Of a DNA stretch of 64,000 bases, positions 35,401-58,759 are shown in pieces. The position numbers and the translations under genes were made by a program. The notes below the pieces were generated by a model. It made no database searches. It saw nothing but the letters and a program-made list of their open reading frames with translations, and was not told the DNA's origin. How positions within the stretch are numbered: the stretch's first letter is position 1; the number at the start of each line of letters is the position of its first letter. The stretch covers positions 3,102,501 through 3,166,500 of the forward strand of contig OZ019759.1 of the NCBI GenBank assembly GCA_947034885.2. The letters are read 5' to 3'. Origin of the DNA: Thuidium tamariscinum (lineage: Eukaryota > Streptophyta > Bryopsida > Hypnales > Thuidiaceae).

Positions 35401-36290
35401 CACAGCAACCTCTTGTGTCTAGCGGACACACACTCGGCTACCGTGAAGCCATCCTTCGGGTTGGTGGGCTTGCGGAACTTACCCTGGTGGAATTTATCTG
35501 TCCGGGTGCCCGTCACATCTCCGCCTTGCTCGAAGGCGTACACCTTGCACCACATAGCCGCACTCCACTCCCTTGGCAGCGCCCGGACCGTCCCCTTCCA
35601 CTCGTTGGTCTGATTGTCCAGCAGCTCCTCCACCATCGCCTCATCCTTCAGGTTCCAGGGATGAGCCATAAACCCCTCGCAGCCCATCTGCCTGAGGTCT
35701 TCCTCCAGCTCCCGCTTATCTTGTGCATCAGTTGGTACAACCGGATTGACATTCCGGAAGGCTAGAATTAGCCCTTCCTGCACTTCCCCTACCATCGCTC
35801 ACTTGACGCCTACACAATCTAGGCGCGGTCCAACTTGACTGAACCTCCCGCGCTCAAGAACCTCTCAACTAGCTTAGTGCTAATCGCTCAACTATGCGCC
35901 AGACCGGATTGACAGCTTCTCTATTCCTTCTCCCTGTCTGTAGACCGAATACTCTCTCTCCTGCCGGAAGACCCTTTCTCGAATTGTGTGCAAGAGAGTG
36001 GCAGGACCTGGCCCTGCCTTCCTGGTCTTATACTTTTCCCCCAGCATTAATTACTGACCGTTAGGTTTAAACTAGTCTGGTCATGTGGGAGAGTTCCCGA
36101 CGATCTCTAGGCTCGGTAGCCACTTATTGCCTATCCGGTCTCGGTCGCTACGTGGGCTGAATCCGGGTTTTCTTACGCTGTTCCTTAGCGTAGTTTTCTG
36201 CTTCCGGTCCGTAGTTTTCCGGTTTCCGGTCTTGGTCCTAATTGTGAGTCAAACTAAGAAAACAACAAAAAAAATGGGGATTGAATAGAT
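32478..36290 (-). mobile_element. Fossil LTR-type element with gag-like region only
   Basis: Minus-strand remnant of a retroelement-like family, about 3.8 kb, with borders approximate. It contains gag-like open frames at about 35,795-35,118 (alpha-helical, resembling the plant Transposase_32-type domain), 34,994-34,788, 34,775-34,017 (coiled coil then proline-rich) and 34,007-33,699 (acidic then basic tail). No reverse transcriptase or integrase was recognised, so it looks non-autonomous. Its left part shares LTR-like sequence with 57.8-58.4 and 60.7-62.2 kb in the opposite orientation, including a block around 32,945-33,015. CCGG-rich repeats are frequent. It lies in the gap between two TNP2 exons, so it is younger than the CACTA element. 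The element is broken. Confidence 0.55.
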
Positions 36291-36337: not shown

Positions 36338-36413
36338 GTTGCCACAATATTGAGGACATCCTTTGGGGAAAAAGACTCTGCAGCTGTGAGAGCGGACATG
36401 CAAGCTCGGGGCA
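36338..36413 (+). pseudogene. tnp2: TNP2 exon fragment left of the hAT insertion
   Basis: Begins after a TTCTAG acceptor and encodes ILRTSFGEKDSAAVRADMQA, matching the TNP2 stretch just before the ..GIRP.LH.. motif. It ends in the hAT target site TCGGGGCA (36,406-36,413). The same codons continue without loss at 53,285, which fixes the insertion point inside this exon. Confidence 0.85.
36406..36413. repeat. Left 8-bp target duplication of the hAT element
   Basis: TCGGGGCA, repeated exactly at 53,285-53,292. Eight base pairs is the hAT-superfamily duplication length. Confidence 0.95.
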
Positions 36414-36423
36414 CAGGGTTGTC

Positions 36424-36960
36424 TATCCTGACGTGACGTGGGCTTTTCCCGTCGGGATGTCATGACGCGGCAGTCGTGACGCGGCAGGACGCGTCAGAGG
36501 CCGTCCCAAATGCTGACGGCGTCGTCGACAGCGCGGATGAAGTCCGTCAACAGCGCGTAGACGGCCTGTCGGCCGCCTCGACGACTGGCCGTCGCGTGGA
36601 CGGACAGAGCGTCCGCGGCTTTAGGGTTTAGGCGCGACGGCCAGGCCGTCGCCTCGACAGTTTTCTGTTCAGCGGACGGTCACGGCGTCCAGAGTCCGTC
36701 CACGCAGCGGGGACGGCCAGAGCGTCCGCGGCTTGTGCACTTCGACGGGACGGCCAGGCCGTCGCCTCGACAGTTTTCCGTTCAGCGGACGGTCACGGCG
36801 TCCAGAGTCCGTCCACGCTGCGGGGATGGCCAGGCCGTCGTCTGGACAGCGGGACGTCCGCTGGACGGCCAGAGCATCTGCGGGGACGGCCACGACGTCC
36901 CGTCCGCGGCTGTCCACAGTGCGCCAACGGACAGGCCGTCGACTGGACGACTGCTGCCAG
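36424..36960. repeat. GC-rich repeat array 1 (left subterminal, upstream of transposase)
   Basis: Dozens of GGCCGTC/GACGGCC-type words. A longer unit of about 118 bp is repeated (for example GACGGCCAGGCCGTCGCCTC at about 36,638 and 36,756). It lies just before the TATA box of the transposase and just inside the left end, where hAT transposases usually bind subterminal repeats. Confidence 0.9.
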
Positions 36961-36970
36961 GCCTTCACAG

Positions 36971-36977
36971 TATATAG
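36971..36977 (+). promoter_or_regulatory. TATA box of the hAT transposase gene
   Basis: TATATAG directly after array 1. It is followed by a short 5' leader with a likely intron (GTAAGT donor at about 37,109; TTTGTGCAG acceptor ending at 37,164) and the ATG at 37,191. Confidence 0.65.
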
Positions 36978-37190
36978 CACAAGCCGTGTATTTGAAGGTC
37001 ACTTTTCCTTGCTGATCTCTGCTCTTATGACCTGGTTGGCACACAGCCATTGCACTAGAGTGAAGTCCAAGAAGAGTGTGTGGGAGGAACACTTGCTGTG
37101 AAAGCAGTAAGTGTTATTTCCACATCACATCCAAACAGAATACTAACCTGTTTTGTTTGTGCAGTTTCAAGTGAAGAACCAGTGGGAGCA

Positions 37191-39575
37191 ATGGGAGGGG
37201 GGAGGACACAATGGGAACCCTGGTACAGGCTACAAGAGGATGGGAAAGTGGAATGCAAGTTCTGCAAAACGAAGAGTAGTTACCGCAAGGATCGCTTGCT
37301 TTTCCACTTGGGTTATACACGAAATGACACCCTCCCCGGAGTGAGAATGTGCAACAAGGCTAGTGCAGCAGTGAAGGCTATGTTTTTCAATTGTGGGGGG
37401 AATGTTCCTACGGTCTCCGAAGACGAAGAGGAACATGATGTGGAAGTGACATCACCGTCATCGAATCCAACGAGGGTGGTACGTGATCAAGAATTACCCA
37501 ATGCTTCAATCTCAATTAGTGGAGGGGGAGGAAATACTTTGGGCCAAAATTCTCAAGTTCGATCATCAGAGGCGCCTGTCCCTTCTTCGACCCATAGTCG
37601 ACCGCTGAGGCAATTATCCGTACAAGAAGGGATGGACACATCCAAAAAGCAAGTACTAGACAAGAAGTGGGCAAAGTTTTTCTACGAAGCAAATATCCCA
37701 TTCAATGTGGTGAGACACCCCGCTTTTGTGGATGCCGTGAAATCAACCTCCGAGTCCAGAGTTCTTTACAAACCTCCACCTTACAATGCCATACGTACGA
37801 AGCTCATGACATCAACAAAGGAGGAAGTGGCTGCACTGGTAGCGGAGAAGACAAAGGGGCCTATCCACAAGTACGGTGTCACTATATGTTCTGACGGATG
37901 GGACAATGTCAGCCATCGGCCATTGATCAATGTAATGTTGTCGTGCACGAGTGGAGAAGTATTTTTGGGATCGGTGGACACTACAGGCGAAAGCAAAGAC
38001 GCTATTTATGTGGCTAATCGCATGATCGATTACATTGACGCGGTGGGGGGACAGAATGTGGTGCAAGTTTGTACGGACAATGCGCCAAACATGCGTTTGG
38101 CTGGTACTCAAATTACTCGCGAATTCCCTCACCTATATTTCCAAGGTTGTTCCGCGCATGCACTTGACCTTCTACTTGAAGATTGGGGCAAGCAACTTTG
38201 GGTGGTCAAAATGGTGAAGAAAGCAAAATCAATCGTGAAATTCATTCGCACGCATCACATGCCACTCGCCATTTTCCGACGACATTCTCCTAACCTCATG
38301 TTGAAGAATCCCATTGAGACACGTTTTGCGACCATGTTCCTCATGATCGAGCGTTTGGCCGAGGTCAAGGAAGCCGTGGAATCTACAGTCCATGATCCGC
38401 AGTGGAACGAATATGTGAGGTCCTCGAACGCTGCAATACACAATAAGGCAGAAAAGGTTCGACGTAGGGTTCGAAAGGACGAGTTCTGGAGGAGGTGTCT
38501 CAACTTTGTGCATATGGTAGAGCCTGTGTTGGTGGCTCTTCGAGAGTTTGATGGAAAACATCCGGTCATGGGCAAAGCATGGATCGTGATGAAGAAGCTA
38601 GAAAAGCATGTTTTGGCTTTGAGGAATCGACCATTTTCATTGGAGGCAAATTATGCGGACCGTGCTGAATACGCGTTTTACGAACGATGGGATTTGATGA
38701 AGACTGATTTGCACTACGCAGCTGCCCTGCTCAATCCATTCCTCCTTGATGAAATTATACTAATAGACGATAACGAGGCAAAGGAGGCCATTCTTAGAGT
38801 ACTACGCAAATTGGCAGTTGGAGGGTTGGGATATGCAGCCGCTTTGTTTGAGTACCAATCCTTTCGAGACCGCCGAGGCATGTTCGCTGGACTTCCCGAT
38901 GTGAATACTTTGAATTTGGAGCCGCATGAATGGTGGGATCTTCTCGGAGCCGCTGCTCATACGCTTGCACCTATTGCAAGAAGGATCCTCGCACAAGTAT
39001 GTTCCGCATCATCATGCGAATGCAATTGGAGCATGTATTCATTTGTCCACAGCAAGTCTCGCAATAGATTGACATCTGAGCGCGCGGAGGAATTGGTTTA
39101 CATTTATACCAATTCGAGGACTCTCAGGGAAAGGGGTGCGGCGGATGCAGCACGATGGTACACTGAGAACATGTTGTCCGAAGATTCCATGACAACTGAA
39201 TCAGATGGCTTGGATCGTGGTTCAGTTATGTCAGACGCTAACAACGATGACTCAGACGACAGTTCCAATGGCGATGATGATCCACCATTTCGGCCTTTGG
39301 GTGAAAGGCAAGAAAGGGGTCCCCTAATTGACGAGTCCGTATTTGACTTTGATGGCGCGGATAATGATGGAAATGACCACGGGGGAGATGAGGATGGAAA
39401 TGACAACGGGGGAAATGATGGCAGTCCGTCATGGATGCCACGTACATCGATTGCGAGGTCAAGTGGTGGAAATCAAAACGAAGGGGTTGAAGCCCCACCT
39501 TCGCCGGTTATAGGGCCGATTGAAGAAGAAATGCGTACCCGGAGACATGAACATGTCGTTGTGGTAGAAAGATAA
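37191..39575 (+). CDS. hAT-family transposase (BED-like finger, DUF659, hAT dimerisation region)
   Basis: Starts at the first good ATG after the leader intron (MGGGRTQWEPWYRLQ). Order: BED-like zinc finger (VECKFCKTKSSYRKDRLLFH), serine-rich linker, and DUF659-like region (KKWAKFFYEANIPFNVVRHP, YKPPPYNAIRT). The RNase H-like core has the first Asp in ICSDGWDN (nt about 37,893) and the second in CTDNAPNM (about 38,076), followed by CSAHALDL. The C-terminal dimerisation region has Glu in SCECNWS and FVHSKSRNRLTSERAEELVY (about 39,015-39,110). All three acidic positions and the RNRL motif are present and the frame is open throughout, so it may be functional. It moves the element by cut and paste in the nucleus. 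A single TAA separates it from an in-frame extension. Confidence 0.93.
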   Translation: MGGGRTQWEPWYRLQEDGKVECKFCKTKSSYRKDRLLFHLGYTRNDTLPGVRMCNKASAAVKAMFFNCGGNVPTVSEDEEEHDVEVTSPSSNPTRVVRDQELPNASISISGGGGNTLGQNSQVRSSEAPVPSSTHSRPLRQLSVQEGMDTSKKQVLDKKWAKFFYEANIPFNVVRHPAFVDAVKSTSESRVLYKPPPYNAIRTKLMTSTKEEVAALVAEKTKGPIHKYGVTICSDGWDNVSHRPLINVMLSCTSGEVFLGSVDTTGESKDAIYVANRMIDYIDAVGGQNVVQVCTDNAPNMRLAGTQITREFPHLYFQGCSAHALDLLLEDWGKQLWVVKMVKKAKSIVKFIRTHHMPLAIFRRHSPNLMLKNPIETRFATMFLMIERLAEVKEAVESTVHDPQWNEYVRSSNAAIHNKAEKVRRRVRKDEFWRRCLNFVHMVEPVLVALREFDGKHPVMGKAWIVMKKLEKHVLALRNRPFSLEANYADRAEYAFYERWDLMKTDLHYAAALLNPFLLDEIILIDDNEAKEAILRVLRKLAVGGLGYAAALFEYQSFRDRRGMFAGLPDVNTLNLEPHEWWDLLGAAAHTLAPIARRILAQVCSASSCECNWSMYSFVHSKSRNRLTSERAEELVYIYTNSRTLRERGAADAARWYTENMLSEDSMTTESDGLDRGSVMSDANNDDSDDSSNGDDDPPFRPLGERQERGPLIDESVFDFDGADNDGNDHGGDEDGNDNGGNDGSPSWMPRTSIARSSGGNQNEGVEAPPSPVIGPIEEEMRTRRHEHVVVVER

Positions 39576-40325
39576 GGCGAAGATGAGGTCGTTGCCACAG
39601 ATCCCCGAGTGGCGCGGAACACTCGTAGCCACAGATCCCCCATTGGTGTCGAGATAGACTTTCGCACATTGCTTCGAGACACGATCGGCGTGCGACCACA
39701 AGCGCCTAGCTTGGATGATCCACCCGTCCAAATTTCAGCACGGCCTTCATCTTCTAGAGTCCGCCCCAACCAAGAAACTCCATCAGTCGGTACACGATTG
39801 GCCGGTCTCTTCCCAACTCTAAATATGACCGAGCGAAGGAATGCACCTCCATCCTCAGAACAACCCGTTGCACCGCCTACACGCACTACTAATCGACGCC
39901 CGCGGCCACGTGAAGAAAGCCCTACCAATGAACGAGTGAGTAGAAGAACACGTAGAAGGCTAAGAAGGGAAGAAGCGGCAAGTATACCATTTCTCCGCGA
40001 AGGTCTTCTCCCTGGACCGACGGGGCCCAGTGTGGATACCGCTGGAGATGGAGTAGGAGGGCGAACAATCCGCAGATTGGCTTCTATAGTAGGTGAAGGC
40101 TCAGACAGCCCTGACAACTCACCAAGCGAAGTCGGTAGGGCAACGTCCAATCATGATGATGAATCCATGGGTCCTAGTATAGGTGAAGATGGTGAAGTTC
40201 CGGGAGATAGTGATTATAGAGGGACTCGTAGAGGTCCTCCACCTGCACCTCAAGACAATCAAGCAACCACGCGAGAGGCTGCTGCAAGGAGCATGGCTCC
40301 TAATCGTACACGTGCAAGACGTTGA
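39576..40325 (+). other. In-frame C-terminal extension after the transposase stop
   Basis: After the TAA at 39,573-39,575 the same frame stays open for 249 codons, to a TGA at 40,323. It encodes a disordered, arginine/proline/serine-rich segment with basic clusters (SRRTRRRLRRE). It has no good ATG near its 5' end. Either a recent nonsense change shortened a longer transposase or some read-through occurs; the acidic, serine-rich character continues smoothly across the stop. A separate gene is less likely. Confidence 0.6.
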
Positions 40326-40706
40326 GAGCATCTAGGGAAAAAAATGTCTCCATGTCATCTTATGTAATATTGTGTAAGGCTGAATACCTTGCATGTGAAA
40401 TTCGGCATTAATTATAAATACTACACATGCTTCCTGTGCTCATGTAGGGCGCATGGGTAGAAATTTTTTATCTTCACATGTCACAAATTCTACAACGCAA
40501 CAACGGATCCATTTATGGATATTTGTCCCAAGAAATGGAAATATTTGCTTTGTCGTTTGCCATGTGTTCTATACTCTTAAATTTGGATTCATTCTTCGAA
40601 GCTGGTTACCTACATGCTTGGATATTTTGAGATCATTATGAATTTTGCCATGTACAAGAAAACAAATGTAATCTGGAATATGGAGAAAATGATTGAAAGT
40701 ACTGAA
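40326..40706. other. 3' region of the transposase gene
   Basis: AT-rich DNA after the coding frame. No gene was seen; probably the 3' untranslated region. Confidence 0.45.
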
Positions 40707-40710
40707 TTAA

Positions 40711-41629
40711 CCCCTAAAGGACCAAGAGTCCCCTCGGGGAACTTTAAGAATTAGGACAAGTACTTGTGACTTCAATTTTTAATGAATTTTATTGAAATTT
40801 TCACATAAGATAAAAAAACTGATTAGCTCCGTAGAAATATTCATTTTTTTTCAATTGGTGACCGGGAGCAAAAGTTATGCCATCATAAACATTATTTTTA
40901 TGTTGCCGGGCAGAAAAAAAATCTACAGAAACTTCAAAATTAAAAAAATAATTTTTTTTTCTTATAGATTATATTTTTGTCTACAAGTAAAGCTTTGATT
41001 CATTCCATTTGGATTAGTAATGTGAAAGTTATGAACAATCTTGTTTTTCGGGCAATCTAAGCATCTTCTTGAAAAAATAACTTCTAGGATTCATTTGTGA
41101 ATGCAATTTCCACAATTTAAAAAAAAAAATTGTTGGACAAGGTTGATTTTGTTTTCTAGAACAATCTCACCATTGGGATTATTGTGTTTCAATTCCATCT
41201 ATGAGATATTTGCAATTTAGTTTTTCTTTCAATCTTGGACCTACATCTACTTGACAATTTTTTAAAGAATGACAAAAAGTCTTTATTTTGTGAATTTTTT
41301 TTCCTAAGCTCTTAGCTCAATTTCTCATTAAAAAAATTTTAATTCAAGGTCTGTAGTGCAAAAAGATTACATAAATGGAGGACAAAGTCATTTGAAGTTG
41401 CAAACTAGTGTTTAAGAAAACTTTGTTTTCCAACTTTGAATGCTCATATCTTCCTATCTATACGGTCAAACTTCATGAAATTTTCACCACATCATCTTAG
41501 TTAAGTAAAGTTCAAGATCCTATGGTTAGATTCTAAAAATTTAGTTTTTTTGTTTTTCATGGATGAATGGAACAAAAATGGCAGTTTTGAGTGGTTTTGG
41601 GTTGAAAAACGGCCGTGGTCCTTTAGGGG
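40711..41629. mobile_element. piggyBac-like MITE, 919 bp
   Basis: The perfect inverted ends CCCCTAAAGGACCA and TGGTCCTTTAGGGG are flanked on both sides by TTAA (40,707-40,710 and 41,630-41,633), the target site used by the piggyBac superfamily. The interior is AT-rich with no coding region. It sits between the transposase and kinase genes of the hAT element and so inserted into that lineage later. Confidence 0.85.
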
Positions 41630-41845
41630 TTAACATGGCATTCAGTCCAAAATTTACGAAGGGACAGAACTACTCACAAATCCACTCACCGGAATCATAC
41701 TCGAATGGAACAAAAAGATTTACATATATTTATTTCAAAAAGGAGTTAGTACAAAATTCAGTGACGCAAAGTTCGTGGACTATACTGTGGTAAAAGCAAG
41801 TACTAAGGTACGTCTACGATTACATTGCCACTAAAATACTATTCT

Positions 41846-43507
41846 CTAATCTTCATTCCTTGCTTGTTCTTGTAGAAGTGCTTGCTCCTTGCGGGCCTCG
41901 CGGTAGCAATCAACGGGTGGAGTCCAAAATAAGGGGGCGCCACTAATTCGTCCCACGGCGTACGTTACCGTGCGTCGTTGTAGTGGGTCCTCTTTGCACA
42001 ATTCGCCCAATGTGGCTTGAAATGTACCAAACGCTGTATGGTCGGGAAGCATTTCCGTATTTTCGCGGTCTTTCTTCCATATCTTCTCCGCAAGCTTCCC
42101 AACAGCATATCCGTCTGTATGTATACTAACACACGGTGCCCCATCTGCACGAGTGGGGGATACCGAAGTGCCCGCCTCTCCAGGAACATACATCAATTCA
42201 GGGGCCACCCACCAACGTTTCTGACGTGTAGCCCGCATTTGGCTTGCACATTGAAACTGGTACAAAGAATGGGTTTCTTCATTGATACGACTAGCCATTC
42301 CCCAATCACATAGCCCAATCCACACTGTTCGCCCATCATCATTCGGAAAATGCAACATGATGTTTTCTGGCGTGATGTCGTTGTGGAGCACCAAAGATTG
42401 TTGCACCGCATCCACGATGCAAATTAACGCCCATGCAAGCTCGGTGCGGTTTCTACGATAAGCCAAGAGTCTTTTGGCTTCTTGCATCGTCTGTGGAGTT
42501 GCATGGTAGGCAAGCTCCCCGATCTCAGCATAATCTCGGTTTTTTTGGTCCAATGCGAACATGGCTCCCAATGTTCCTCCATTCCACCATTGAGAATAAC
42601 ACTCCATGGTCATGTCATTTATAGCAAAAAATTTTATGACCCCTGGATGATTACATGGACAAACCAAAGCCTCGATGGACAACTTCTCCCGCGACTTCTT
42701 CAATTGATCCACATATAGGGCTGTCTTGCCCGCCAATTCCATCATGGGGGGAATGTGCCTTGAATTTTGGAGGCTCACTTTACGCACCCTCCCGTGCCCC
42801 CCTTGTTTGTTGTGGCCTGACAATGGAACCACCACCACTCCTCGTTCAAGAAATACCACTCCTCCCGCACCCGCTTGGCCTAGGGACAAGCTTTGGCTCT
42901 GCTGAAACCATGGGGCAGAGCGGATATTGCTGGAAGACAGCGCTCGCATTGCGTCATGCCACCAATACACCTTTTTGTGCAACAAATGCAATGCTTGTTG
43001 CTTCGGCGCTACATCTCGTTTGAAGCCCTTTACCGATGCGGCGACTTGGGCGATGTTGAAAACACAAGTTTGCACTTGTTCGTCAAGCCAACGACGGAAG
43101 TGTTCCTTTGTGCGATCTTCAAGCCACTCATCCTCGCCCATTGTTGTCCAAAACATGTGGGTGAATTTTTTTTTAATTGTCTCCACCCCTTGCAATCCAC
43201 GCGAGACGTAGGTCGTATTCAATTGAGCAATCGTATATTGCTCCAAAAAATCCAATGCTACTTCCTGCACTTTCCTGGTCGCAACCTTCCTTGGCCAGTC
43301 GTCTGTATTCGTAGCCTTGTGCCTCCGCCTGCTCTTTTTTTTCTTGGCCCCCGAAGATTCTCCTCCAGCCGCACCACCGACCCCTTCTCCGGCCAATACT
43401 GCCTCTGATACGCAGTCAATGGATTCTGGAGACTGCTCACCAACAGGATCTCCGATGCCTGAAAACCACTCATCAACCTTGCGCTTCGACGCACCTCGCC
43501 CGTCCAT
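41846..43507 (-). CDS. Atypical protein kinase-like cargo of the hAT element
   Basis: Uninterrupted 553-codon frame starting at an ATG about 200 bp downstream of its TATA box. The N-terminus is basic (AKKKKSRRRHK, residues 54-64, a likely nuclear signal), followed by a helical region of about 150 residues. The kinase-like part begins near residue 225: glycine loop GGHGRV (236-241), catalytic loop LHNDITPENIML (HND 375-377 with Thr in place of the usual Lys; Asn 382 kept), DWG (401-403) in place of DFG, WWVAPELMY (APE 435-437) and HTDGYAVGKLAEKIW (helix F-like). The catalytic Asp and metal-binding Asp are present, but HRD and DFG are altered and I could not place the beta-3 lysine with certainty. 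It may be an active divergent kinase or a pseudokinase. Its partner is unknown; the element's own transposase is a reasonable guess. Confidence 0.8.
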   Translation of the reverse strand: MDGRGASKRKVDEWFSGIGDPVGEQSPESIDCVSEAVLAGEGVGGAAGGESSGAKKKKSRRRHKATNTDDWPRKVATRKVQEVALDFLEQYTIAQLNTTYVSRGLQGVETIKKKFTHMFWTTMGEDEWLEDRTKEHFRRWLDEQVQTCVFNIAQVAASVKGFKRDVAPKQQALHLLHKKVYWWHDAMRALSSSNIRSAPWFQQSQSLSLGQAGAGGVVFLERGVVVVPLSGHNKQGGHGRVRKVSLQNSRHIPPMMELAGKTALYVDQLKKSREKLSIEALVCPCNHPGVIKFFAINDMTMECYSQWWNGGTLGAMFALDQKNRDYAEIGELAYHATPQTMQEAKRLLAYRRNRTELAWALICIVDAVQQSLVLHNDITPENIMLHFPNDDGRTVWIGLCDWGMASRINEETHSLYQFQCASQMRATRQKRWWVAPELMYVPGEAGTSVSPTRADGAPCVSIHTDGYAVGKLAEKIWKKDRENTEMLPDHTAFGTFQATLGELCKEDPLQRRTVTYAVGRISGAPLFWTPPVDCYREARKEQALLQEQARNED

Positions 43508-43702
43508 TCTGAAAAAAAATATGCGATGGTAAAACCAAGGAATTAGGGTTCAGTACTCACAAATGTGAAAACTATCCCCCCTTCCTCAGCCGAGCCTCCT
43601 CGCAAGCACCCGCGCTCCCAAGCAAGGACTGCAACCAATCCAGGGCAAGAGAGCACCGTCAGAGCAGGAGAGACTCGTGCAGAGTGGGGGACCTGGCCCA
43701 CC

Positions 43703-43709
43703 TTATATA
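43703..43709 (-). promoter_or_regulatory. TATA box of the kinase gene
   Basis: On the minus strand CTATATAAGG lies about 195 bp before the ATG and directly downstream of GC-rich array 2, the same layout as for the transposase gene. Confidence 0.65.
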
Positions 43710-43719
43710 GTCGTTGGCG

Positions 43720-44165
43720 AGCCGTCGCATGGACGGCCGATTCGTCCAAGGAACTCGAAAGCCGTCGAGGGGTGTCGGGAACTCCGAGACCGTCGAGGGG
43801 ATGCGTTGAAGCCGTCGAGGGGAATGTCGAGGACGATGAGGCCGTCGACGGGACGCACCCATCCGTCCCGGGAATTTCGAAGCCGTCGTGGGGACCGTCG
43901 AGGAACTGCGAGACCGTCGAGGGGACGCGCTCGCCGTCCTCAGAATTGGGAAGCCGTCGAGGGGAATGTCGAGGACGATGAGGCCGTCGACGGGACGCAC
44001 CCATCCGTCCCGGGAATTTCGAAGCCGTCCAGGAAACCGTCGAGGAACTGCGAGACCGTCGACAGGACGCACAAGCTGTCCTGGGAATTCGGGGGTCCGT
44101 CGTGGAACGAGGCCGTCCACGCGACCCCACAGGGCGTCCCGGGAATTCTGAACCATTAAGGGGAT
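43720..44165. repeat. GC-rich repeat array 2 (upstream of kinase)
   Basis: CCGTCGAGG/GGCCGTC words with a larger direct repeat of about 141 bp (the phrase GACGATGAGGCCGTCGACGG at about 43,832 and 43,973). Long open frames appear on both strands, but they only read the repeat and I do not accept them as genes. Confidence 0.88.
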
Positions 44166-44341
44166 CGTCGGGGAAGCACAGGGCGGTGAAGATGCCAGCG
44201 AAGACTTAATGGCAAGCCTCGTGCAACTGAAATTCCTCTACAAGGTAATAAGGTAACAGGCCAGAAACCGCCCATCTAAGGGCTGACACTGAATTTTGAG
44301 AAGGTCAAAAACCCAGCCTAAAGCCCTTGCCCAACCGAAGG

Positions 44342-44376
44342 TTTTAGGATTTAGGGTTTAGGGTTTAGGGTTTAAG
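44342..44376 (+). repeat. Short interstitial telomere-type repeat (TTTAGGG)
   Basis: About four units of TTTAGGG, three perfect, lie just beyond array 2. This is the plant-type telomere unit; it also occurs as the telo-box in plant promoters. Confidence 0.8.
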
Positions 44377-44379
44377 TTC

Positions 44380-47300
44380 CTTTTTACTTTTGCGTAAATG
44401 AGGGTAAAATGTCTAGTTTAGTAATTTAATAACTTAAGAAGTGCATTATAATTTGTATTCGGTAATTGATCTTTCTTTTCCTAGCGTCAATCTAATTTTG
44501 CAAATTTTGAAGTAATTAAAAGAAATAACATGAAATGATTAAACTTATTGGTTCTAGTCTAAACACATACCTCTTCGGTTGATGCGTATCCGTTCTCAGT
44601 TGTGTCGTCAAAAAGCTCTACTTCCTCCCTTTCCATCTAATTTCATTCTCCCCCGTAAATTTAGGAAATAGGAGCTAATTTTAATAATTTAATCCGGCTT
44701 AATTAGCATTTGCTATTTGATGGTCACACTATAACTCCTTGAGGAACTTAAATCATTTCCGTACAATGACTTTGCCTAAATCTAATTCAAGCGTACATAC
44801 ATCTATTTTACAAAATGGGGTCACATAAAATGCCTAATTGAATTCTTCAACCCAATTATATTGTTGTAACTTACTAGGAATCTAGGATGTTTTTTGGTAT
44901 GAAAGATGTGCATATGGATGTTTCCTACATATCTCCTCTTTGCAAATTAATGCTAATTCATCACCAATGTTTTATAATCAATTATCATGCTAAACCATGA
45001 GTTTTGAATGAAACAATTCACCAAATACTGAATTTGACTTATGTGAAATCCACATTTGGTATGCTTGATTATATTATGCAAAATTTGTTTCAATGGCAGA
45101 ATTGGATGATCCTAAACTTGTTGGTGGGTAGTGTGTAATGTACACGGCTAAAATTTTACATTGCCTTCCAGTGCTTCATCTCATATCGAGAATGGCTGAA
45201 GTGATGGACCCTAAATTTTAGAAGTTGCCCTACGGATATGTAGGGATTTAAACTTCTCAATTTTAAATTCGGGAGCCATCCGACTAGGCATGTATTTTTT
45301 AGGAAATTAGATTAGTACTACATGTACATATTAGTATATTACTATATTGCATAATATTCTGGTCATGTAGTCATGTACTCTACTTATGAGTTATGAAACT
45401 ATGAGTTATGAAAGTATAAGTGAATGGCGAGCACTAATTAGGAGTTTAGGACGGGGGCACTGGCAAGCAAGACTCCGTTAGTGGGCACCAACCAATTTTC
45501 AGAATTCAGACTCTTCTGCGGAACCCTAAACCGCTCTAATCCTCTCTTTGCCGAAGTGTATGATAAACCCTAGAAGAAAGAGTTAGAATTCCGCAAGTGT
45601 GTTAATGGTTTGAACCAAAAATACACGTCAAAGGGTTAAAAAAGTTACCCCAAAAAAATATAGAAAGGGTTTGGAAAGAAATTGTCGAGCCCTGTTCGAA
45701 TAAAAAAAATGTGGAAATGGGTTGGAAAAAAATGTGTTAATGGTTCAATTAAAAAAAATAGGGAAAAGGTTTGAATCCCCAAAATGGAAGTGGTGTGAAT
45801 AAAGCAAAACGTTAATGGTTTCGGGTGTTGGGCAAAAATATATAGAAGGGATTTGGACCAAAAAATGGGTTAATGGATCGACTAAAAAAATATGGAAATG
45901 ATTCGGTTTGGAAAAAAATGTGGAAATGGTTTGAATAAAAAAAATGGGAATGGTTTGAATAAAAAAAATGGGAAAGGTTTGAATAAAAAAAATGGGAATG
46001 GTTTGAATAATAGACTTGGGGGTTCACCCCCTTTATCTTTTGGTAACCACGTGCGATAATGGGGTATTTAATGGGGGGGTATTTATGTCCTTCTCATGTT
46101 TTTTTCCCTCCCTATTAGTAGAATAAAGCTACCGGAGTGTATTTTAGAGTACCCTATTTTCTTTTGTAAATTCTTTGAAGGACTATTTTTGAACACCCTA
46201 TTTTTTTTCTACATTTCATAATTACAAAATATTGAGAAGATCAAAAACATTGTATACAAGGAAACGTGTGAGCTTCAAGGATTTTGATGAACTAAGAACA
46301 TGGTGAAACGCACAGCATATGTTATCTATATGCCACTAAAGAGTTTGAAAATCAAAAATCAAAGCTACAACTATTTATATTTCACCATTTATAAGAAAAC
46401 AAAGCACACAATAGAGAAATTAAACTATAGTATACAATCCTAATTAATGCAATATTTAAAACCAATTTAAAGGCACAAGAGCATATTCACATTCATTTAT
46501 ATAATAAGGAAAACTTAGGGAATTTAATAAGCCGATTGTGTTTAAAAACACAAGTATCAGTAAGTCTGCAAATCCATTCTAACATTTAAAATGAAGAAGT
46601 TCAAGGACCTCTTGCTCTCAAATCAACTATTATGGTAGGAAGCTCACACGGAGGTTAATAAACTATGCAGGCTTTTTTATCTGCTTAATAGGACTATAGG
46701 AGGGTCTGAAATCTGAATTGGAAAGCTCATTGTGAAGAAACTAATTGTGGATTATATTGAAGCATGCTAAGATTTGATTTTTACTATATGAATGGATGGT
46801 TTTAGAGTTACAATGGATTCAATCGTAACTAAGTGTACTTATAGGTGTCTACTAATTTTATTCAAAATAAAAAATGGTTGTTAAACTACCTTCTTTCAAA
46901 TGTGAAATTGTTTTGAAATAATGATTAATTGAAGAATTCATTTCAGATTTTGAAAGGGACACATTTAGAAACCATTTCAAACCATTTTTTACATGTTGCA
47001 TTACTAGTTTATTCACCAAACCAGATTCTTTTAGAAACTGTGCATGTATAGATTTTCAAGGCTTACTGATCACAAATAGGGTCCTATGACAAATTGTGTT
47101 TGAAAATTAATAATTAATTCAATTTTTCTTCCAAAAAATATGAAACAACTTGTATTAGATTCCTCATCTATTTCTCCTTGACTGAAAAATAAACTAAAAA
47201 TATTTTCATCTAAAGACATACACGAAAAAGGCAAATCAACTCTTAATTTAAATAAGTGCAATCTTTGCCTCCTACCATGCATACATGGCTAACACACTTG

Positions 47301-47620
47301 TCACAATCATGAATCCCAAAAAAATTTAAAAAGAAATACAAGATCTGAATGAGTCACACACTTGTCACAACCATGAATGAATCCCAAATTTTTTTAAAAA
47401 GAAATGCAAGCTGTGAATGTTAACTCACTGAGCTCCAATAAAAATTACAGTATACAGGTACTGCATTGGCAATCTTCACCAGTTCACCCACATTAAAATT
47501 CTGCTGTCTTACAGCTTATTGCATCTCAACTGCCTAAATGAATACCAATTGCGTAATTGGATCTTGGCTGTCTAATTGGATTCCACCTACCTAATTGAAA
47601 TTCAGTATATATTAGGCCCA
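44380..47620. other. AT-rich spacer of the hAT element, no gene recognised
   Basis: Contains a degenerate minisatellite at about 45,600-46,020 with units such as AAAAAAATGGGAATGGTTTG. Its reverse complement resembles the larger array at 51,400-52,640. No coding region, RNA gene or transposon end was recognised in the remainder. Confidence 0.55.
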
Positions 47621-47624
47621 CCTA

Positions 47625-48420
47625 TTGGGCCCGTCCAGGACCTGGGCAGGCCGTCACGGAGACGGAGAGCGTCCAGAAAACCGTCCAGGAAGACGGGCCC
47701 GTCCAGGACCAGGGCAGGCCGTCACGGGGACGGAGGGCGTCCCTAAAACCGTCCAGGAAGACGGGCCTGTCGAGGACGGCCAGGGAGGACTGACCCCTCT
47801 ATTGCCCCTTTTTTACCCTTGTAGAAAACCCTGGAATTTCTTTTATTTTTCACACAAATTCTTTTTTGCAAATTCTGAATTCTTATTTGGAATCAGAGAC
47901 CTCGATTTAGCTAGGGGACGTGTTGAAATCTAAAATTTAATCGGCACAAATTAGGGGGGAATTTTTTACATTTACCCTCTGGAGGGGCAATAGAGGGGTC
48001 AGTCCTCCCTGGCCGTCGAGGCCCTGGGCAGGCCGTCACGGGGACGGAGGGCGTCCAGAAAACCGTCCAGCAACACGGGCCCGTCCAGGACCTGGGCAGG
48101 CCGTCCGCAACGAATTTGGCTGCGGGCCGGAGCGTCGACCTGTCCGGGCAGGCTGTCCACAGCGGAACAGTGGCCGTCCAAGACCACGGGCAGGCCGTCA
48201 CGAAGAGCCATTTTTGGCCATCGAATTTGCAATTCGGCGGAGTAATTATGGATTTTCGAACTCATGAGTGTTTTCGAACTCGTTGACGGCGCCGGACCTG
48301 TGGACGGCCTCTGTGACGTCATCCCGAAGCTGTCGACGGCCTCCCGAACCTCCGTCGACGCTCCTTGGACGCCCCAGCCGTCGATGGCCGTCCGCATCAA
48401 CGGCTCCAGGTGGTGCATGG
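47625..48420. repeat. GC-rich repeat array 3 (upstream of RING gene), split by a foldback
   Basis: Units of about 70 bp (CCGTCCAGGACCTGGGCAGG, then CGTCACGG and AAAACCGTCCAG) occur at 47,625-47,790 and continue at 48,010-48,420. The two halves are separated by an AT-rich loop between perfect 32-bp inverted arms. Array 3 precedes the TATA box of the RING gene. Confidence 0.85.
47778..48014. repeat. Foldback with perfect 32-bp inverted arms
   Basis: The arm at 47,778-47,809 (starting GGCCAGGGAGGACTGACCCC) is the exact reverse complement of 47,983-48,014, with a 173-bp AT-rich loop between. It could be an inserted small element or a rearranged array junction. Confidence 0.85.
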
Positions 48421-48472
48421 CGATGTGATTAGACACAAATTAACACTCCTAACGAGGCTTGGTAATGGGGAG

Positions 48473-48479
48473 TATAAAT
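48473..48479 (+). promoter_or_regulatory. TATA box of the RING gene
   Basis: TATAAAT lies after array 3 and about 200 bp before the ATG at 48,674. A GTGTGCAG just upstream of that ATG could be the acceptor of a leader intron. Confidence 0.6.
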
Positions 48480-48673
48480 CCCAAATTGAGCCACAATTAA
48501 CCTTGCTTTCTCTCTTGAGTTGCTCTGTCCTAGCTTGAAAAAAGCTTTGCATTGCAATTCGGGAGGAAGTCAAGCATTTAGCTATTGCTTTGCCACATTC
48601 CAGTTGCCCTCACGCAACAGGAGGCAGAGCATAGTCATCTGTACATACATACCGTGTTGTGGCATTGTGTGCA

Positions 48674-51043
48674 GGTAGTATGGCCTTAAACCCTGGAGAG
48701 ATGGTACTACATGTAGAGAACCCCCCCATGGCAGAGAACCAGGAGGTGGTAATTGCTGGAAATCACCCCCCAGTGGTAGAAAACCAGGAGATGGTAACCC
48801 ATGAAGGTGAACCCCCACACAAGAGGCGTCGTGGGAACAGGAGCACTGTAGACTAGGCGACTTTCAACACTGGAGAAGTTTTGGCCGGGCACGGGTGGGA
48901 ACAGGCGCTTGAGCCATGGACCCGCACCACATGTCAGAGATACGTGGACTGGGCCCACATCAACCGCCATTTTCCACGGGAGAGAAATGAGACGCAAGTG
49001 CGATCTGGCGTTGCATTGATCAAGTATTGCGTACACCCAACGTTCAAGAAGCGGTTGACCGAGGTGGCATTGGCACTTTGGGGGACCCTCTTGAAGAAGG
49101 ATGGGACCCTCGCATTGTGTCAAATGGCGTATGCGGAGGTTTTTTTGGGCAAGGACGTGGATTGGAACACGTATCCGGCTAAACAACGGGGCGGCCGTTT
49201 CCCTACTAAAAGCCGTAGAATTCCACCAAATCCTGAAGTGCAATTGGAAGGCGAAGGAGTGGCTGGGGCACAAGGGGACGAAGCGGCGGCCGCGGACCCC
49301 ATGGAGGTCGACAATGCACCTCAAGGCGCCAACGAACAAAATCCGGTGGCTCCCGAATTGGAGGCGCCCATTGCCGGTCCAAGCGAGCCTATGCCACTCG
49401 CCATTCACCCAATTCCCCCGTCCATGACAATTAATGAAGTATTTGGAGCAAATGGGGAATTAGAGGCATTACGTGCATTGGTGATTAAGCTGCGTGAGGA
49501 TGGTGCAAAAGCTGAGCGAAGGCACGAGATGGAGGTACAAGCCCACAACGCACAAGTGAAGGCTTTGGAGGAAACGAATGCTAAGTTACTAGCAAGTAAC
49601 ATTGACTTGCTTGAACGTGAACGTCGCCAAAGCACGGATGGCACTCCACCATTGGATGAGGTCGTGGAGCGGGCCACATATGGTCTAATTGAGCCAGCTG
49701 ACCCATTGACGGTGCGCCGGGTGCGGCCTCATGGTATATTCCCAACACCACATTTTCGTGGTGAGAGTTCAAATGCGGCAACCCAATCAACAGATGCATT
49801 GGGCCAAGAGTTCATAAGCGTTGAGCGCGTGGCATACGATGCCCTTGTGGCACGAGCGGAGCGTGCAGAGGGCGAGTGCAATGAGGCCAAGGCCAACATG
49901 GAGACTGTATCAGCGGCTTTGGAGGGACTACAGGACGAGTTGGCATTTGTAAATGCCATGAAGGATAGATTGTTGCAACAAACGTCAACTACGAGGGAGC
50001 AAAAGTTGCTTGCCATGAGCAACATGAGATTGGCATGCACTTTGGCTATGAACGAGGTCGCACAACTGCAGCGTGAAGTCAGGAGAATAGCTGCAGAATT
50101 TAGAGATGGTAGCCAACGTTATTTTGGCTTGACATCGTGGGCCCGACTGGAGGATATGTTTCCAGTTACATTGCCCCAAAATCACGATAATGCAAGCATT
50201 GATTGGGACGGGCATCCGCATCTAGACTTCCAATTCAACATCGCGAGATATCGATACGGGCCCGTGGATAGAGAAGGCAATGCCCCCTTACTGTGGCCCA
50301 TAGTTCCCGAGTTTGTGAAGGATGGAACGACGTGTACGATTTGCATGGAACCGTTTGGACCCGAGGGTGGATTTTGCCTTGGAACGTGTGGACATATGTA
50401 CCACCCCGGATGTCTCATTCCGCACATGGTCACAAGAAAGCGGTGCGCACAATGCAAGGCTCCTTTGCACCGGCGGTTGTACGTCCAATTTGGGTTGGAG
50501 GATTACATGCCCCCACACTTCGAGTTGAACGAAGAGAACTTGCCTGGCGATGAGAATAGAGGGAGTTGGGGTAATGACATGATATGGATGTGGAAGTGGG
50601 GCCATGACAGTAGACACCTCGCCGTGCGCAGCGTGCAAGACATTCCGTGGAACGATGATGCGGAGATTACGGAGGTGTGCAAGAAGCTGATTAGTGCGGG
50701 CGATCCAGGGCGGCGAGTATTTTTTGGCCAACTTGCTGGTGGCCATTGGGACTTGGACCGACAAGAGTTCGTGCGCCAACCACATCCAGAGAATGTGGTT
50801 TTTGACTCCAGTGGAAATCCTATCGGAATACTCCAAGACATGGATCATGAGGCACAAATGAGGTTCATCGAAGACACTACGTTCAATGAGGTGCAAATGT
50901 TGTCAACCATTTCTTCCTACTTGCACGATCGATATGATCGGACCGTAGTGGCTACGTTGAACAGTTTGCAATCTAGAGAAGGATTGCAAGATTTTTTGAG
51001 AAATAGTATAGGCAGAGGCATTGTAGAACCAGAACAAGGTTGA
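48674..51043 (+). CDS. RING-H2 protein with coiled coils, cargo of the hAT element
   Basis: The likely start region is near 48,674 (MALNPGEMVLHV...), with a basic patch HKRRRGNR. A TAG at 48,854 interrupts the frame, which then stays open for 729 codons to TGA at 51,043 without a nearby ATG; the stop looks like a recent lesion, or the real start lies further in. Order: N-terminal helical region (WTRTTCQRYVDWAHINRHFP), proline-rich linker, coiled coils (about 49,450-49,630 and 49,800-50,100), then a RING-H2 finger at 50,333-50,455. That finger has the spacing C-x2-C-x14-C-x-H-x2-H-x2-C-x10-C-x2-C, and a conserved-looking C-terminal region follows. RING-H2 proteins are usually E3 ubiquitin ligases. 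The target is unknown; the transposase, kinase or a host silencing factor are guesses. Confidence 0.82.
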
Positions 51044-51399
51044 ATACCTTCTGGTGATGAGTTAGGCCATTAGACGGATGTATAGTATATTAGTATTGTA
51101 AATAGTATTTGGCTATGACGACCATTTACGAGCGTTTGTTGCTCATGTTGCAAAAGTACATTTTTTGGGCAATGAAGCATTTTCATTTTTCTCGTACAAC
51201 TGTATTGTTTGTTAAACACTTAAACTGAAAACTTAACCATGAACAAATGAAAAGAATACTCAATACGTTTGCTTGAAATGTATGTGCAACAAGTTCATTT
51301 AAATCCAATGCCATACTTTCACTTAAAGTAGATTTTGTAAGTTCACTTTTAAAAATTTCCAAAATTCTATTTTTTACATATGCCACAAGTATATATGCT
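51044..51399. other. 3' region of the RING gene
   Basis: AT-rich sequence with no gene seen; probably the 3' untranslated region. Confidence 0.45.
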
Positions 51400-52640
51400 T
51401 TTGTTTTTGATTCCCACCATTTCGAATTTTTTTAATCAAACCATTAACCCAAGTTTTTCCCACCGCATTTTTCCACATTTTTTTTTCCACATGTCAAACC
51501 ATAACCATTTTTTTACCCTAACCCATTTCCATTTGTTAGATTCAAACCCTTTCCATATTTTAGATTGAACCCATTTCCATATTTTTATTAGTCGAACCAT
51601 GAACACATTTTTTTAAACCATTTCTATATTTTTTTGTCGTCCACATTTCAAACCATCAACGTTCTTTTTTATTCAAAGCATTCCCATTTTATTGATTCAA
51701 ACTATTTCCAATTTGAGCCTTAACCATTAAGGCATTAACATTTTTTTTCCAAACCATTTCTAAATGTTTTTTATTCAACATTTCAAACCATTTCCATATT
51801 ATTTTTAATCAAACCCTGAACACATTTTCTTTCCAACTTATTTCCATATTTTTTTTAGTCAAACCATTAACACATTTTTTTTCACGACCCTTTCTATAAG
51901 TTTTTTTCCAACCTTTCAAACCATTGCCTTTTTTTTTATTCAACCCATTTCCATATATTTTTTTTATTCGAAGCATTTTCATATATTTTTTAGTCGAAAC
52001 ATGAACACATTTTTTTTCCAAACCATTTCTATATTTTTTTGTATTCAACATTTCAAATTATTAACTTTTTTTTAATTCAAAGCATTTCCTTTTTCTTTTT
52101 CTTTGATTCAAACCATTTCCATATTTTTTTTAGTTGAACCATTAACCCATCTTTTTTCCAAACCATTTCTATATTTTTCTTTCTAACACCCTATACCATT
52201 ACCGTTTTTCTTTACTCAAAACTTGGCCATTTTTTTACCCTAAACCATTTCCATATTTATTCTAGTCAAACAATTAACACATTTTTTCTCCAAACCATTT
52301 CTAAATTTGTTTTTCCAACATTTCAACCCATTTCCATATTTCTTTTAGTCAAACCCTAATCACATTTTTTTCCCAACCCATTTCCAAATTTTTTTGGTCG
52401 AGCCATTAACACATTTTTTTCCAAACCCTTTCTATATTTTTTTTTCATTCAACATTTCAAACCATTAACGTTTTTTTTATTCAAACCATTTCCATAATTT
52501 TTTTATTCGAACAATTAACACATTTTTTTTCAAAACCAGTTTTACATTTTTTTTAATTCACAATTCCAAACCATTAACGTTATTTTCATTCAAACCATTT
52601 CCTTTTTTTTGATTCAAACCACCAAAACCTTTTTTTTAAA
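51400..52640. repeat. AT-rich degenerate minisatellite
   Basis: About 1.2 kb of units of the form AAACCATTTCCATATTTTTT and AAACCATTAACACATTTTTT in irregular alternation. A shorter inverted relative lies at 45,600-46,020. No coding potential. Confidence 0.9.
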
Positions 52641-52794
52641 TACAAAATATATATTATATTTAGACTATGGAAGGCCTAAAATACAAAACCATGGGAAATT
52701 ATTTTTTGAGAGATGGTTAAACCTCATAGACTAATGAGAAAATTTTGATTGCGAATATGAACTCAGACTTTTAAGTCTTACAAATAAAGAGTTC

Positions 52795-53270
52795 CAGTCC
52801 ACGGAGCCCAGGCCGTCCATCCTGACCGTCGACGGCACGGCCAGGCCGTCCATCGAACCCAGGCCGTCCAACCTTCCTCTCAATCCAAGCCGTCCTTCCC
52901 AAGCGTAGACCGTACCCAGACCGTCGATCTGGAGGCGTCCGTCCAGGCCGTCCACTGGACGTCCTGTCCATCGGGGCCGTCCATACCCCGCGAGCGGGGC
53001 CGTCCCCTAAAACCGTCCACCGGATCCGGACCGTCCGCAGAACCTAGAGTGTCCATCCAAGCCGTCTAGTCAGCCAGGACCGTCCATCGGAACTGTCCAC
53101 CGAGCACGTCCTTCCAGGCCGTCCACGGAGGTCGTCCGTGAGGGCGTCCACGACCGCTGTCACGATTTTTCATCCTCTGTCGCGGATTCTGTCGTGAATT
53201 TCATCCTGACGGACGCTCGGCTCCCCGTCACGTCAGCGGACGGACATCCTGACGGACGAACGTGACGCGA
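52795..53270. repeat. GC-rich repeat array 4 (right subterminal)
   Basis: CCGTCCA and GGCCGTCCA words at short spacing, then TCCTGACGGACG and CGTGACGCGACGG next to the right end. These last words recur near the left end in the opposite orientation. A likely set of transposase-binding sites. Confidence 0.88.
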
Positions 53271-53284
53271 CGGAAGCAACCCTA

Positions 53285-53292
53285 TCGGGGCA
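53285..53292. repeat. Right 8-bp target duplication of the hAT element
   Basis: TCGGGGCA, identical to 36,406-36,413, followed directly by continuing TNP2 codons. Confidence 0.95.
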
Positions 53293-54059
53293 TACGACCG
53301 CATCTTCACCTGCAAGCACTAGGTCCTAATCGTAATCGATTTCATATGCCACATGCATCTTATGTACTATCAGTAGCTGACAAGGCAAAGGTTTTGCAAG
53401 TGTTGAAGAAGTTGAGGACACCAAGTCATTATGTGTCAGCCCTTTATACAAAAATCAGCAAAGGAAAATTGAGTGGACTGAAATCTCATGACTTTCACAT
53501 CCTTCTTCAACAAATTTTACCTTTATGTTACAGGAAAGTGTCAAACAAAGCTCTTGCAAGTGCAGTTATACACCTTAGTAGAGTATTCAGGAAGTTGTGT
53601 GCAAAAACAGTGAACATTGATAACAAGGCACAATTGAAGGCCGATGCAGCTGAAACGATGTGCATGTTGGAAAGAGAAATGCCTCCTTCTTTTTTGACAT
53701 CATGTCCCATTTGCCTCACCACTTAGTGGAGGAACTCTTCCTTTGCGGACCAGTGCATACAAGGTGGATGTATCCATATGAACGTTATTTCAAGACATTG
53801 AAAGGGTATGTCAGGAATTTAGCGAAACCGGAAGGGTGCATTGCCCAAGGTTATCAATCAGAGCAAGCATTGGGATTCATCACCGAATACATGTCTGACT
53901 ACAATTTGACATCATGAAGAGTGTGGGATGACAAAGAGGAACCCACAATGGTCGACGAAATATTAGAGGGGAAGGGGAAGCGGAAGTTGTTGTCCCTAGA
54001 ATTAAGGAACACAATGCATGAGTTTGTATTGGACAATGCATCACACATTGAACCTTATC
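53285..54059 (+). pseudogene. tnp2: TNP2 continuation with DUF4218-like region
   Basis: Encodes ..GIRPHLHLQALGPN, then MPHASYVLSVADKAKVLQ, KLSGLKSHDFHILLQQIL and VEELFLCGPVHTRWMYPYER with FKTLKGYVRNLAKPEG: the DUF4218-like part typical of TNP2 proteins. The frame changes near 53,695 and a stop follows at about 53,915. It ends at a GTGAGT donor at 54,060. It continues directly from the fragment at 36,338-36,413. Confidence 0.88.
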
Positions 54060-55318: not shown

Positions 55319-56200
55319 AGGTACCAATTGATGTGGCTTGAAAGAACGAATGAGAGAACTCAGTTTCGGAGGAGGCATCCACATAGAAATGGAAGGAGGG
55401 GTGCACCATTTCCAGCTGGAATGGAGGAACTACCTCCTTTTCCTGTATGGCTTTAGGAGGATGTGCAGAATGCTATACTGCAAGGACATGAAGTAGCTGA
55501 AGAAATAGTCGACTCCTCTAAATTACCTTCTCTTGAGGCCCAAAAATTTCAAAGTGTGTACGCATATGGACAGCATTTTCGAGTGAAAGGTGCAGAGACA
55601 AGTGAAACTAGCACTTGTGATTCAGGAGTGGCTGCTGTGTTTCGACAACCATGTCGCTCAGGAAGACAGGACAACAACATTGTGAATGTGGACTTGGAAT
55701 ATATAGGCCAGATATCAGAGATTGTGGAGCTCAACTATAGAGGGCACTGTATAGTGTTGTTGATATGTGATTGGGTGAAGGCAAACTATAGAGGTCGAAA
55801 TGCAACAGTGAAGAAGGATGAATGGGGTTTTACACTAGCAAATTTTGGGTCAATGGTGCCTTTCGGTTATGAATCTTTAGCATTTCCAGTTCATTGCAAG
55901 CAAGTTTTTTTCTTAGATGATGAAGATGAGCCTACATAGAAAGTAGTATTACGCACTGAAGTTAGGGGACGAAGAATTGACAATGAGATGGAAGAAGAAG
56001 AGGATCCGGAAATGTTTGCAATGGGAAGAGATGATGATTTCGATGGTCTATGAGTGCCAATGGACATCCCAGAGGCTTTTCCTAATGTTGTTCCAGGAGG
56101 AAGGAACATTGAAGCACATGCGGTGTTCAACAAAATGAGAGACGGGAACTCTGCAATGTTTGACAGGGATATAGGAGAATCGTCAAAAGATGAGGAGTGA
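55319..56200 (+). pseudogene. tnp2: TNP2 3' exon with DUF4216-like region
   Basis: Starts at a TTTTGCAG acceptor. It encodes VYAYGQHFRVKGAETSETST, VDLEYIGQISEIVELNYRGH, LLICDWVKANYRGR and FGYESLAFPVHCKQVFFL (DUF4216-like), then an acidic tail ending at TGA 56,198. In-frame TAG/TGA codons at about 55,454, 55,937 and 56,051 show decay. Confidence 0.88.
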
Positions 56201-58400: not shown

Positions 58401-58759
58401 AGTAACGTCTAGAATCTCCTGGGACGATATTCCGTGTCATATTATCACGTTTGGGTGTCATAAAGGTGCTTTCTGCTAGACTGCGCGTATGACATCTAGT
58501 ACGATGCTGGTTCAGTGTTTAGAGTTTTGTTGTTCCATTTCTCTCAATTTTTTGATTTCTACAATAGGTTTTCGTTCGTTGATTCCATTTGTTATGCAAA
58601 TGCAGAATTTGATAGTTTACAAATTCTAGGTCTGCTCGTTCAACGTGTTTGTTTAAAAATGTGCATGCATACAAACTGCAGTAGTGCTGCACGATTGTCC
58701 CAACAATAGTGTCCTATAACCGCGCAGCCATGGTAGATCGCAGAAGGTAGATTTATGGT

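Follow-up and report, generated by a model that had tools for sequence, protein, structure and literature searches.

Transposons of the hAT superfamily usually carry only a transposase gene, and they usually end in terminal inverted repeats of the CAGGG/TAGGG type. In Ac, the two ends match save for a C/T difference at the terminal base, as in the element described here. VANDAL elements belong to the MULE superfamily. According to the available part of PMC3260210, the Ac transposase binds subterminal AAACGG repeats in the Ac ends. In VANDAL21, the VANC21 protein binds motifs arrayed in the non-coding regions of the element, including upstream of VANA21, and these motifs are arrayed in one orientation, as stated in the available part of PMC5735166; a partly available later paper reports loss of silent marks at the VANDAL21 arrays (PMC10398659). 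Pack-TYPE elements, as PMC8903248 defines them, are non-autonomous and transport fragments of captured genes. DNA transposons can encode a RING finger, as in the Chapaev/Transib and RAG1 case, where the finger is part of the transposase and where the RING of RAG1 has ubiquitin ligase activity (PMC4411706, in part). That publication, of 2015, stated that a RING was not known from any other transposable element, and among the entries of a 2019 table is a MULE of Phytophthora with a C3HC4 ring finger (PMC6446971, in part). Among the papers listed from the openly licensed literature, and judging by titles and the first lines of abstracts, none describes a hAT element that carries a kinase gene or a RING gene, which does not prove that there is none.

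The window considered here, that is, the whole 64-kb stretch of DNA that was analysed, contains a single hAT insertion carrying a transposase gene, a kinase-like gene and a RING-H2 gene. It occupies positions 36414-53284 (16,871 bp, with exact boundaries; Table 1). This element resembles Ac and other plant hAT elements, as described in the sources at hand, by its 8-bp target-site duplication (TSD), its hAT transposase with a dimerisation domain and its subterminal motif containing ACGG (AAACGG in Ac, GACGG here). It differs from them by its length, 16.9 kb against the 4.6 kb given for Ac, by its two further genes and by motif arrays that also stand upstream of the internal genes. Arrays of a short motif, also placed upstream of genes, recall the VANDAL elements. 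However, the transposase is here of the hAT and not of the MULE type, the orientation of the motif is mixed and the accessory proteins are kinase-like and RING-H2; no Pfam match of the element's proteins suggests a VANC-like one. With Pack-TYPE hAT elements, in the available description of these (PMC8903248), the insertion shares extra coding DNA between hAT ends, but it has its own transposase frame, interrupted by one in-frame stop, and long frames preceded by arrays of the element's type. Unlike the situation in Chapaev and RAG1, as far as PMC4411706 describes it, the RING is encoded by a separate gene, in another superfamily. Assignment to the Pack-TYPE class was considered and rejected, since that class is non-autonomous and a transposase frame is present; assignment to the VANDAL/VANC class was also rejected, since the transposase is that of a hAT and not of a MULE.

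The sequence-only reading had placed the ends at exactly these coordinates, with matched termini and a perfect 8-bp duplication, and all three features were reproduced. The duplication TCGGGGCA is found on both flanks, with a perfect match at this offset only among the seven tried. The ends, CAGGGTTG and the inverted TAGGGTTG, show a C/T mismatch at the first base and then seven matched bases, past which the inverted repeat does not continue. The window counts 77 hAT-like starts, of sequence CAGGG or TAGGG, and 103 ends of the hAT-like kind; of the pairs 300-20,000 bp apart, 36414-53284 is the sole one whose TSD shows no more than one mismatch. Shuffling of the window (first-order Markov, 1-kb blocks) produced a pair of 5-bp hAT-like ends with a perfect 8-bp duplication at such distances in 13 of 300 cases, and such a pair with seven matched terminal bases in none of the 300. 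The features that place the insertion among hAT elements are the 8-bp TSD, the short terminal inverted repeats of the CAGGG/TAGGG type and the dimerisation domain accompanied by DUF659. Furthermore, when the flanks are joined without the insert, an open frame (...VRADMQARGIRPHLHLQ...) leads into a DUF4218-like stretch that stays below the Pfam threshold, and the earlier claim that a flanking CACTA (TNP2) frame resumes across the insert thereby holds. Because of the perfect TSD, the matched ends and this read-through, the element is regarded as one unit. The proposal that the three genes belong to a single mobile unit is therefore supported, and it is strengthened by four common motif arrays which the sequence-only reading did not include.

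Table 1. Positions, in the window, of the features of the hAT element and of its target-site duplication.
Feature	Coordinates	Strand	Remarks
Left target-site duplication	36406..36413		TCGGGGCA
Left terminal inverted repeat	36414..36421	+	CAGGGTTG
Array L, left subterminal region and putative transposase promoter	36414..37000		22 CCGTC/GACGG; CpG observed/expected 1.27
TATA-like box on the inner margin of array L, past the last motif copy	36971..36977	+	
Transposase reading frame	37059..39572	+	838 codons stop to stop; first in-frame ATG 37191
Same-frame continuation of the transposase frame	39576..40322	+	249 codons after one stop; no Pfam match
Kinase-like gene	41849..43507	-	Uninterrupted over 553 codons, beginning with ATG
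Array K, upstream of the kinase gene	43700..44180		21 CCGTC/GACGG; 71/142-bp tandem units
TATA-like box of the kinase gene	43703..43709	-	
AT-rich array, in opposite orientation to that at 51.4-52.6 kb	45595..46032		
Array R, upstream of the RING gene	47625..48400		25 CCGTC/GACGG; 68-bp units in part; 238-bp gap inside
TATA-like box of the RING gene	48473..48479	+	
Codons from ATG in the frame of the RING ORF, ended by one stop	48680..48853	+	58 codons; no Pfam match
RING-H2 gene	48857..51040	+	728 codons stop to stop; first in-frame ATG is codon 90
AT-rich tandem array	51396..52640		
Array E, right subterminal region	52790..53284		21 CCGTC/GACGG
Right terminal inverted repeat	53277..53284	-	CAACCCTA, inverted TAGGGTTG
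Right target-site duplication	53285..53292		TCGGGGCA

The three genes named in the sequence-only reading are indeed found inside the element, with a weak match for the kinase and RING models that fall short of their thresholds. The transposase contains an N-terminal zinc-finger-like stretch (C..C...H), a DUF659 domain (PF04937, E 2.4e-36) and a hAT dimerisation domain (PF05699, E 1.4e-8), the latter two over their cut-offs. Its match to Hermes is weak, with a whole-sequence E of 7e-4 that comes from two stretches non-significant alone (i-E 0.49 and 9.7). Acidic residues occur in the motifs SDGW at 278, TDNA at 339 and CECNW at 653. Within these individually non-significant stretches, a D, D, E series of the transposase stands opposite the D, D, E of Hermes, which we take to be the catalytic triad of that enzyme. 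The continuation of the frame past its stop probably belongs to the transposase protein or to a further exon, because an open run of 249 codons has a chance of about 3e-5.

The gene on the opposite strand would encode a divergent kinase-like protein whose kinase activity is putative. The motifs GGHGRV, HNDITPEN, DWG and APE can be recognized in it, and the Pfam Pkinase match is weak (E 2.6e-8, 34 bits against a cut-off of 31.7). No PDB chain matches this protein at E 0.01 or better; the closest chain for its C-terminal part is IRE1, with E 0.031 over 69 residues. Between stops, the frame counts 567 codons, a run with a chance of 6e-11. A likely splice acceptor, TTTTTTTTCAG, read by eye, ends one base ahead of the start codon. 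As for the third gene, its product is predicted to be a RING-H2 protein and a putative ubiquitin ligase. Its residues 493-533 show the C3H2C3 zinc-ligand pattern, and it matches the PDB chain of RNF24 (E 8.6e-5). The zf-RING_2 model is 0.2 bits short of its threshold (E 5e-6, 27.1 bits against 27.3), no RING model in Pfam reaches its own cut-off, and all Pfam matches with E below 0.05, each under its cut-off, are confined to the RING stretch. The chance of a 728-codon frame is 1e-16. The short open run of 58 codons ahead of it is not unusual by chance (P 0.08), and a possible splice acceptor, GTGTGCAG, was seen by eye shortly ahead of the RING ATG. AlphaFold2 models made from the single sequences of the kinase-like and RING proteins (pLDDT 36.6 and 41.0, respectively) are too poor for a fold search. 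Each of the transposase and RING frames contains one in-frame stop, which points to decay or to introns, and this copy may be decaying or not fully functional.

Within the element's own set of proteins, BLASTP at E up to 1 revealed no common domain, and no Rfam match reached the gathering threshold anywhere in the 64-kb window. Relatives of the element's proteins were also searched for in other collections. In viral contigs, pattern scans with the RING, kinase and transposase proteins gave 0, 6 and 2 stretches and core-domain scans 47, 4 and 20 stretches, respectively; in prokaryote genomes, a pattern scan with the RING protein gave 4 stretches. In none of these scans was a relative confirmed by tblastn, and a search of plasmids with the RING protein found nothing. 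Because such single-protein scans find close relatives only and the collections are non-plant ones, these negative results carry little weight.

A new observation concerns the distribution of the short motif CCGTC/GACGG. The window holds 154 copies of it, 103 inside the element and 51 in the 47,129 bases outside. Among the 103 copies of the element, 89 fall in four arrays, two of them terminal, a third immediately ahead of the kinase gene and the fourth immediately ahead of the RING gene. The arrays, whose bounds were drawn by the analyst after the motif density had been seen, are 481 to 776 bases long and together cover 2,339 of the 16,871 bases. Each contains 21-25 copies, where 2,000 first-order Markov sequences per array gave 2.7-4.9 on average and never more than 14; since the arrays are partly tandem, copies within one array are not independent. 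The densest 500-base stretch of each array holds 16 to 22 copies, and no 500-bp stretch clear of the arrays, in the whole window, holds more than three. More weight than to these counts should be given to the existence of four separate arrays with different units, a common core and such positions. Indeed, the tandem units measure 113 bases in L, 71/142 in K and 68 in R, and the core AGGCCGTC is found in every array (6 copies in L, 3 in K, 7 in R and 5 in E). All six pairs of arrays align with scores above those of each of 100 first-order Markov shuffles, the narrowest margin being that of K with E (score 36 against a shuffle maximum of 32). The GC content of the arrays is 0.58-0.67. The 3.4-kb spacer of the element holds a single copy of the motif and the 1.5-kb intergenic stretch none. 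The ratio of CCGTC to GACGG is 11:11 in L, 18:3 in K, 16:9 in R and 16:5 in E, with no consistent direction relative to the genes.

Each of the arrays L, K and R has a TATA-like box next to it, on the side that faces the gene and in the sense orientation; these boxes begin 35, 13 and 85 bp, respectively, from the nearest motif copy. Such a box is found on a given strand in 5.8% of the 120-bp stretches of the window, with a pattern picked after the sites had been seen. The distance from box to start codon is 220 bp for the transposase gene, 202 bp for the kinase gene and 207 bp for the RING gene, taking the ATG at 48680. The start codons of the kinase and RING genes are the first ATG past the box; that of the transposase gene is preceded by an out-of-frame ATG at 37027. 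One extra motif copy, at 43656, stands between the kinase box and its gene.

Considering these features, the following model may be proposed. We think it rather probable that the insertion is a single three-gene hAT transposon whose kinase-like and RING-H2 genes are resident, and not host genes gained by one copy. All three putative promoters bear the motif array of the element ends. A protein that binds these ends, most likely the transposase via its N-terminal zinc-finger-like region, would also occupy the kinase and RING promoters, and once bound it would determine the output of the element as a whole. The action of the other two proteins would be post-translational, with the transposase or the silencing machinery of the host as its most likely target; the sequence-only reading had already suggested that they might control the activity or turnover of the transposase, or counteract silencing. 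The two genes are regarded as members of the element because an element protein, probably the transposase, would bind a motif that recurs at their promoters and at the termini. By analogy with the VANDAL/VANC arrays, the layout argues for resident genes in a common regulon against chance capture. It is from the one copy examined that we infer a motif-binding protein, the co-regulation of the genes, their residence in other copies and the roles of the kinase and RING proteins. A more specific version is put forward tentatively, as it seems to us to fall short of probable: in this three-gene regulon, a single motif, present in the termini and in the promoters of the two accessory genes, would be read by the transposase, and the products of these two genes would tune the activity and the turnover of the transposase, or disarm host silencing, so as to form a self-carried circuit of post-translational control. 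The in-frame stops, the ATG at 37027, the orientation of the motif, which is mixed unlike that of the VANC21 motifs, and the copy at 43656, past the TATA-like box, count against the model as a whole.

Other origins of this arrangement may be envisaged. In one of them, one copy would recently have gained two genes of its host, for a kinase and for a RING protein, in a transduplication resembling that of Pack-TYPEs, and these genes would have no function there. That plant TIR elements, hAT included, capture genes is reported in the available part of PMC8903248, and a single copy was examined here. However, the two genes are not short fragments, their open frames running from stop to stop over 567 and 728 codons, with the chances given above; both are only weakly similar to known families, the kinase having the Pfam E value of 2.6e-8; and the element's own motif array precedes each of them. 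Because array and TATA-like box stand in the same geometry before two unrelated genes, a recent capture would be unexpected, and we hold it to be unlikely. The same arrays could also be viewed as the old ends of related one-gene hAT elements, each with its own subterminal arrays, that would have merged by fusion or nesting. The resemblance of the internal arrays to the terminal ones fits such an origin, as do the two AT-rich arrays between which the RING gene lies, which are inverted copies of each other, and four internal end pairs with two TSD mismatches. No nested hAT element was detected inside 36414-53284, in that every internal hAT-like pair has at least two TSD mismatches and that the four pairs with exactly two each share at most six end bases, in a search which decayed ends would escape. 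Moreover, arrays K and R adjoin TATA-like boxes, and a merger of this kind appears quite unlikely.

It may also be imagined that the arrays are GC-rich minisatellites that spread neutrally within the element, the motif having no regulatory meaning. Such a spread, compatible with the other readings, could be the source of part of the array pattern: the arrays are partly tandem, in units of 113, 71/142 and 68 bp whose copies are not independent, and they are GC-rich. Yet the units differ among arrays while the core is kept, and the spacer and intergenic stretches are nearly or wholly devoid of the motif; as the explanation of the arrays, neutral spread is considered rather unlikely. Finally, a join of unrelated fragments during assembly is highly improbable: although one contig was examined, the perfect TSD, the matched ends and the frame read-through speak against it, as does the recurrence of the same motif array at 36.4, 43.7, 47.6 and 52.8 kb.

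To come back to the three-gene transposon with resident genes, should the kinase and RING genes prove constant in a hAT lineage, such transposons could control the activity and the lifetime of their own protein. The logic of this control would be comparable to that of the VANC system of VANDAL elements, with different enzymes. In that case, similar kinase-like and RING-like genes in plant gene sets might need to be relabelled as transposon genes.

The observed/expected ratio of CpG is 0.98 to 1.38 in the motif arrays and 0.81 to 0.91 in the coding frames and the AT-rich array, against 0.56 to 0.58 in the flanks, 0.46 in the element spacer and 0.55 in the intergenic stretch. High CpG is limited to the motif arrays, the genes and the AT-rich array; the spacer and intergenic stretches are as CpG-poor as the flanks. 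This pattern fits either unmethylated promoters or merely the presence of CpG within the motif. Because the spacer and the intergenic stretch are CpG-depleted like the flanks, the youth of the insertion cannot be deduced, and the element need not be young or unmethylated. The AT-rich arrays that flank the RING gene are about 77-80% identical to each other. A TTTAGGG-type repeat is also present in the element, at 44339-44374; taken with the CACTA domains and the DUF659 hAT transposase, it makes a land plant the probable source of the element.

The gene around the insertion is, from its domain matches, that of a CACTA transposase. Transposase_21 matches are found at 29755-30267 (E 9e-21) and 30271-30786 (E 3e-35), in the same frame and with a stop codon between them, 5.6 kb upstream of the insertion and separated from it by other ORFs. 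On the other side, the DUF4218-like stretch at 53253-53723 (E 0.0018, 18.5 bits) remains under the Pfam cut-off of 27, and a DUF4216 match at 55457-55936 is just under its own (29.9 bits against 30.6). Because a stop splits the Transposase_21 pieces and ORFs lie between these and the insertion, the host TNP2/CACTA gene was probably already broken or inactive before the hAT element inserted. Further downstream, six copies of a 31-base motif (GACCTTGAGGTTCAGACCACGCGTTCTGAAC type), spaced 89 to 145 bases apart, occur at 58749-59316; these are possibly subterminal repeats of the CACTA element.

Other features were observed upstream of the element. The minus strand of 33677-35798 is GC-rich with long reading frames which, by eye, look like those of a retroelement gag; among them, 34020-34787 has no Pfam match and 35121-35798 has only a sub-threshold match to DUF5575_C (E 0.027). 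Long plus-strand frames at 13409-17322, in which no Pfam match was obtained for the four frames scanned, include a SWIM-like stretch recognized by eye (CTCPDF...CKHLYYLYRYFC) and resemble a MULE-type transposase. A direct repeat of about 240 bases with 83% identity is located at 9525-10124, each copy of which holds a palindrome of about 100 bases that is 96% self-complementary in one copy and 92% in the other.
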